From IMG/VR virus record IMGVR_UViG_3300017527_000512, positions 62,001 through 126,000 of that record: 64,000 nucleotides of DNA. One strand, written 5' to 3'. The first letter of the stretch is position 1, and the number at the start of each line of letters is the position of its first letter. The notes under the pieces are model-generated. The model was not told the origin of the DNA and did no database searches. It saw only the letters and a program-made list of their open reading frames with translations. The translations under genes were made by a program, and so were the position numbers. Of this stretch, positions 25,992 through 26,060 are shown piece after piece. This DNA comes from a virus.

Positions 25992-26060
25992 AGTGGTACG
26001 GAGAAGAAGAGTTATCACATTTTTATTGTAACAATTACTCTTTTTCACTACATTACCACT
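25992..26060 (+). ncRNA. Free Y-RNA-like RNA
   Basis: AGTGGTA pairs with TACCACT at the base; an internal loop has CGGA on one side and ACTACAT on the other; then GAAGAAGAGT pairs with ACTCTTTTTC over 10 bp, with ATCAC in the apical loop. This lower stem/internal loop/upper stem layout, including a GAGTTATC segment, closely resembles animal Y RNAs from memory, whose lower stem binds Ro60. It starts three bases after the preceding RNA. Confidence 0.72.

Follow-up and report, generated by a model that had tools for sequence, protein, structure and literature searches.

A 69-nucleotide (nt) element at positions 25992-26060 of a 64-kb stretch of viral DNA (IMG/VR record IMGVR_UViG_3300017527_000512, positions 62,001 to 126,000; hereafter the window) very probably represents a tRNA-less Y RNA, here termed the free Y, which would be the equivalent, in bacteria and phages, of the Y RNAs of animals and the stem-bulge RNAs of nematodes and would serve the phage Ro60 protein as a ligand. 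Conservation supports the Y RNA part of this assignment, whereas Ro60 binding (from genomic neighbourhood), processing, expression and the sign of any feedback are features that we infer; the established basis consists of the sequences, predicted folds, conservation, strand bias and leader hairpin position described below. The RNA and the gene concerned are as follows.

25992..26060, plus strand: free Y RNA, tRNA-less, 69 nt (fold; match to covariance model R1; match to RF01656 below cut-off)
26118..27710, plus strand: Ro60 gene with TROVE and vWA_Ro60 domains, 530 amino acids (Pfam PF25045, 1.6e-59; PF05731, 8.8e-38)

The presence of this gene bears out the placement of the RNA ahead of a Ro60 gene in the initial annotation of the window. 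The window protein is a Ro60 orthologue, and solved Rsr and Ro60 structures are matched by a profile that combines ten Ro60 proteins of phages, that of the window included.

The predicted fold of the free Y starts with a 7-base-pair (bp) terminal helix, in which AGTGGTA (25992-25998) pairs with TACCACT (26054-26060), followed by an asymmetric internal loop composed of a bulged C25999 and GGA (26000-26002) opposite ACTACAT (26047-26053). The upper stem comprises 10 bp including one G.U pair, formed by GAAGAAGAGT (26003-26012) with ACTCTTTTTC (26037-26046), and the 24-nt loop, without T arm or D arm, carries TTATC (UUAUC in the RNA) at 26012-26016 as its 5' end. A bulged C25999 opposite ACTACAT is likewise placed by alignment to the R1 model. 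Folding energy for 25992-26060 was -18.4 kcal/mol compared with a mean of -7.8 for shuffled sequences (z = -4.3, with 0 of 200 shuffles equally stable), and sequence and fold together confirm the layout originally described of AGTGGTA/TACCACT helix, asymmetric loop, 10-bp stem and loop. The vertebrate Ro60 site consists of a seven-base-pair helix from which one cytidine bulges out, with a further bulge in the facing strand (PMC4726728); a UUAUC loop motif is common to nematode RNAs and vertebrate Y RNAs (PMC4450293). The predicted fold of the free Y contains these structural features of a Y RNA or stem-bulge RNA, namely a terminal helix of approximately 7 bp, a bulged C with an opposite bulge, an upper stem and UUAUC, and lacks the tRNA-like domain within the Y loop that characterizes YrlA.

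Ro60 is frequent among phages, being present in 348 INPHARED records. A first collection of approximately 170 Ro60 loci from IMG/VR, GTDB genomes and named phages was read with a descriptor specifying an outer stem, then CG, TTATC or TTAAC, and an upper stem. From other loci 46 free Y candidates aligned cleanly (alignment A2); in the consensus the terminal helix, mostly with GGGC or GGGU at its end, is followed by a C bulge, the upper stem and GGUUAUC, and ACUU frequently precedes the closing strand. Standard pairs filled 89% of pair cells, and the covariation score was 0.757 compared with 0.264 for shuffled data. These 46 RNAs were used to build the R1 covariance model, the window RNA being left out. 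When the 64-kb window was searched with R1 the free Y was the only significant match, at full length (25.2 bits, E = 9e-4); the match ends at 26059, 58 nt from the Ro60 start codon and on the same strand, and its R1 score is likewise 25.2 bits in L004. Across 157 other Ro60 loci, training loci included, R1 produced 176 matches (111 + 65), every one on the Ro60 strand, a bias that is informative because a two-strand model scan would not shun the other strand by chance. The Rfam model RF01656 (nematode, ceN72-3_ceN74-2) also falls on the free Y, and at relaxed limits its matches in nine other Ro60 loci lie only at free Y positions (twice in L046, and in L072 and L095). Searching 16 Ro60 loci with Rfam 15 at curated cut-offs reported none of these free Y RNAs, so tRNA-less Y RNAs beside Ro60 are missed by Rfam under those settings. 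In the closest relative by Ro60 sequence (L015) the same order of two chimeras, free Y and Ro60 is found, the L015 chimeras being capped by GAAA as read by eye.

Several observations weigh against this assignment. The covariation in A2 is partly built in, because the R1 sequences were picked with a stem descriptor, and at 25.2 bits the free Y lies at the weak end of the R1 family. A search of the whole virus record with R1 returned nothing at E up to 1, a result in conflict with the 25.2-bit matches in the window and L004; this empty search has been ascribed, as an unproven explanation, to the first-look filter of the genome search. The RF01656 match reaches 30.1 bits, below the cut-off of 38, and the vertebrate Y RNA model RF00019 was not listed for the window at E up to 10. 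Comparison with a Y RNA covariance model, proposed initially as a check, is therefore favourable for R1, below cut-off for the nematode family and negative for the vertebrate one. Taken with the same layout in many Ro60 loci and the position of the element, the independent R1 match and the sub-threshold RF01656 match support a Y RNA-type identity, and reading the free Y as one of the tRNA-less Y RNAs that are widespread next to Ro60 genes is largely right.

The free Y shares sequence with three neighbouring elements.

25735..25854, plus strand: tRNA-Y chimera 1 (Rfam tRNA, 49.0 bits with insert; constrained fold -33.7 kcal/mol; chimera script)
25860..25988, plus strand: tRNA-Y chimera 2 (Rfam tRNA, 49.3 bits with insert; constrained fold -34.3 kcal/mol; chimera script)
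26065..26100, plus strand: mini Y hairpin in the Ro60 leader (UUCU-CGGUA, bulged C26074, GGA/UCC, AUAU, UACCG-A-AGAA; z = -2.5)

The sequence GGTACGGA occurs exactly at 25790 (chimera 1), 25995 (free Y) and 26070 (mini Y), the only exact matches in 64 kb and all within 290 bases, and chimera 2 carries the diverged version GGTACGTT. Similarly, exact copies of ACATTACC stand at 25778 and 26050, and the variants ACATTACT and ATATTACC at 25912 (chimera 2) and 26087, respectively. The pieces said at first to be common to the free Y and both chimeras are thus real and exact in chimera 1 but diverged in chimera 2, and the repeated signature attributed to three RNAs is present in four elements, the mini Y having been overlooked.

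Both chimeras possess complete tRNA bodies with a Ro60-type helix in the anticodon arm, and are members of a recurrent class. Chimera 1 has a 7-bp acceptor stem (GAAGAGA/TCTCTTC), a D arm and a T arm, with the anticodon arm replaced by a Ro60-type helix in which TACC (25782-25785) and GGTA (25790-25793) are joined by GCAA; ACAT precedes and CGGA follows this helix, with an 8-bp upper stem and then GATTATC. Chimera 2 has a 7-bp acceptor stem (GCGAAGG/CCTTCGC), D and T arms and an intact 5-bp anticodon stem (CCTGT/ACAGG), its insert comprising the helix TACT-GCAA-GGTA (25916-25927) and then GATTATC, so that GCAA caps both. ARAGORN misses both chimeras, and the Rfam tRNA model detects both with long insertions. 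A script seeking tRNA bodies with insertions holding TTATC or TTAAC, run over Ro60 loci, yielded 44 candidates, some from duplicate loci, in which the acceptor-to-T-loop distance peaks at 100-111 nt compared with 48-79 nt in ordinary tRNAs. In most candidates a short cap connects the 3' strand of the Ro60-type helix to its 5' strand, and 12 of 19 four-nucleotide caps, read from the candidate table with one duplicate locus excluded, are GNRA or UUCG (binomial p = 1e-13 against 1/32 + 1/256). The YrlA model RF02553 matches only across the chimera junction (25800-25916; 39.9 bits, below the cut-off of 69). Despite this match, an arrangement of plain tandem YrlA units is disfavoured; tRNA bodies with an inserted Y helix are favoured because of the 7-bp acceptor stems, the chimera 2 anticodon stem and the GCAA caps. 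A degenerate tRNA-like sequence (25611-25680, plus strand; Rfam tRNA 24.1 bits, below cut-off) lies directly before the Y cluster.

The mini Y would bring a Y-like helix to the translation start of Ro60, its 3' end lying 5 nt upstream of the following site.

26106..26111, plus strand: Shine-Dalgarno AAGGAG of Ro60 (sequence and folds), able to pair with CUCC 26083-26086 in an alternative fold

In its predicted fold this hairpin is non-permuted. The R1 model scores it at 8.8 bits (E = 0.1 in 801 bases), a weak match taken alone, and other Ro60 leaders show no enrichment of the non-permuted form (3 of 175 compared with 2.0 expected), which counts against the mini Y as a class. Because of this lack of enrichment the case for the mini Y depends on its position and on its locus-specific pairing, reproduced by 98 of 200,000 shuffles.

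In many other Ro60 leaders a short hairpin with the layout CUU-(GCUC..)-cap-(..GAGC)-CGAA is seen at the Shine-Dalgarno, between the last Y and Ro60; a Streptomyces phage leader (L014) and the Sorangium leader (L125) are among those with this capped form, which is better supported than the mini Y. The pattern occurs in 27 of 135 leaders compared with 1.1 in shuffles, having been written from these same leaders, and in 14 of 111 (0.89 expected) after removal of similar leaders. When applied unchanged to held-out leaders from loci fetched later it was found in 13 of 64, compared with 0.39 expected and at most 2 in any of 100 shuffles. Among non-redundant Ro60 leaders 27 of 175 carry the hairpin, compared with 14 of 807 leaders of other open reading frames (ORFs) of the same loci (p = 4e-12), the latter set including some spurious ORFs; the shared-word filter used for leader counts reduces relatedness and does not remove it. 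Capped-hairpin 3' ends cluster 5-23 nt upstream of the start codon, and 25 of the 43 hairpins found within 300 nt upstream end less than 25 nt from it. This position and enrichment suggest that the leader hairpins at the Ro60 start may mediate autogenous control of Ro60. In nine loci (L024, L028, L030, L036, L038, L040, L044, L067 and L073) a capped leader hairpin is present with no R1 free Y match in the stretch examined, and may be the sole Y-like element. At approximately 4010-4072 of L113 a capped Ro60-type hairpin (CATTTGCCCGCG..CGCGGGCCGGAG) stands before another ORF of the Ro60 locus, which may therefore be a further gene controlled in this way.

The proximity of these elements to Ro60 raises the alternative, which we consider somewhat unlikely, that the free Y is no separate RNA and forms part of the Ro60 mRNA leader as a tandem cis-acting Ro60 binding site with the mini Y. 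Both lie on the Ro60 strand, and a terminator scan predicted none between chimera 1 and Ro60; a single transcript is therefore plausible, from which the free Y could be processed out or in whose leader it could remain. Free-Y-sized elements ending 50 nt or less from the Ro60 start are found in 15 of 175 loci compared with 2.7 expected, and the L015 Y ends 24 nt upstream of its start codon. However, many loci have their free Ys in arrays, downstream of Ro60 (26 matches) or several hundred bases ahead of it, and a terminator-like hairpin, read by eye, stands between the Y array and Ro60 in L037, L091 and L018. A separate RNA and a leader role can, moreover, coexist.

The sign of leader control could also be positive, with Ro60 binding exposing an otherwise sequestered Shine-Dalgarno instead of blocking it, a reading to which we assign a low probability. 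In a 73-nt piece of the window leader, a fold pairing CUCC (26083-26086) with the Shine-Dalgarno GGAG reaches -12.5 kcal/mol compared with -10.7 for the Y-like fold, in which the Shine-Dalgarno is free; the Y-like fold is preferred once the upstream free Y is included. Several other leaders have CCUU before the hairpin and AAGG after it. These energy differences are within error, however, and predicted Shine-Dalgarno access among capped-hairpin leaders ranges from 0 to 0.83. For proteins bound a few nucleotides from a Shine-Dalgarno the classical precedent favours repression, which likewise counts against positive control. Given two competing folds, the window leader may be two-state. A chance hairpin, intrinsic terminator or tRNA remnant is highly improbable: the region is rich in tRNA genes and TTTACTT follows the hairpin, but this is a poor U tract, the terminator scan does not call the hairpin, there is no D or T arm, and both the fold (z = -4.3) and the E = 9e-4 match to a model blind to the window RNA speak against it.

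Taking the free Y as a tRNA-less Y RNA, a mechanism can be proposed. A single transcript would carry chimera 1, chimera 2, free Y and Ro60, and maturation of the chimera 2 3' end would release the free Y 5' end near 25990. Docking of the terminal helix and its bulged C onto the outside of the Ro60 ring would protect the RNA and gate how other RNAs reach the ring. The chimeras would offer the same helix on a tRNA body and could recruit tRNA-binding partners or PNPase, and the free Y, without a tRNA module, may act as a stabiliser, competitor or gate. With roughly even chances, free Ro60 would also bind the mini Y at its own Shine-Dalgarno, Y RNA and mRNA thereby competing and setting the Ro60 level. 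The broader proposal, to which we give slightly less than even weight, is that phage and bacterial Ro60 is autogenously controlled by a Y RNA mimic at the Shine-Dalgarno, that the window has both halves of this arrangement, and that tRNA-less Y RNAs of phages and bacteria and animal stem-bulge RNAs, which have the UUAUC loop and the bulged-C helix in common, form one lineage. If true, this would constitute a simple feedback balancing Ro60 against Y RNA.

The window is part of a 164.5-kb virus record with many tRNA genes, and 20000-44000 gave no match in DNA similarity to phage records. One further feature lies upstream of the cluster.

25704..25733, plus strand: promoter-like site (TTAATA, 18 nt, TATATT) just before chimera 1; weak, by consensus match alone

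Such sites were fewer than in shuffles, and the scan gives no evidence of function for 25704-25733. The features that follow are likewise on the plus strand. A CCA-adding tRNA nucleotidyltransferase (31791-32975; phrog_2244, 2e-117) could mature tRNAs and tRNA-Y chimeras. An ORF 0.9 kb behind Ro60 (28634-29353) encodes an AVDKIDGTN (KxDG-like) motif with weak matches to phage RNA ligases (phrog_14301 and phrog_548), and its product is a possible RNA-repair partner. An orphan T-arm-like stretch, GGTCGTAGGTTCGAGTTCTTC, at 27920-27960 lies behind a tRNA-Arg without a matching 5' half, ARAGORN predicts a tRNA with a 4-base anticodon (cttc) at 37956-38030, and an ORF inside the tRNA cluster (20549-21202) has a helix-turn-helix start with a weak Pfam HTH_23 match.

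Ribosomal proteins and phage coat proteins are autogenous translational repressors. The control proposed here would resemble theirs in that an RNA-binding protein recognises a ligand mimic at its own Shine-Dalgarno, and differs in that for Ro60 we infer it from position and enrichment only. Autogenous control of a Ro60 gene was not found in the literature searched, nor were the capped leader hairpin and the capped tRNA-Y chimera, key Y RNA papers lying outside that search; the novelty of these two is accordingly provisional. Chen et al. are said to have predicted Y RNAs near Ro60 in more than 250 bacterial and phage species in 2014 (RNA 20:1715). A later paper cites this work for Y RNAs next to Ro60 in bacteria and mycobacteriophages and itself suggests such RNAs in a Listeria phage (PMC12282133). 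The free Y has the same genomic association as these RNAs, phages included, and belongs to a known kind because of these earlier predictions.

In common with nematode stem-bulge RNAs and vertebrate Y RNAs the free Y has a terminal helix with a bulged C and opposite bulge, an upper stem, a loop that opens with UUAUC on its 5' side, and A-C-U/A-U-U before the closing strand. It differs in its length of 69 nt, in having no known DNA replication role, and in the shortfall against RF01656 and lack of an RF00019 match noted above. Bacterial Y RNAs have been reviewed as not homologous to vertebrate ones (PMC4726728), and this disputed relation would become testable, since tRNA-less Y RNAs carrying the animal loop motif are common beside prokaryotic and viral Ro60 genes. 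Like YrlA and the Deinococcus Y RNA (RF02553), the free Y adjoins a Ro60 (Rsr) gene and has a Ro60-type helix at its ends. The tRNA-like module of YrlA recruits tRNA-binding partners or PNPase (PMC8394870, PMC4726728); the free Y differs in lacking such a domain, and the window chimeras differ in being de-permuted, with tRNA ends outside and the GCAA-capped Y helix inside, and are thus the de-permuted counterpart of the YrlA layout with real tRNA ends.
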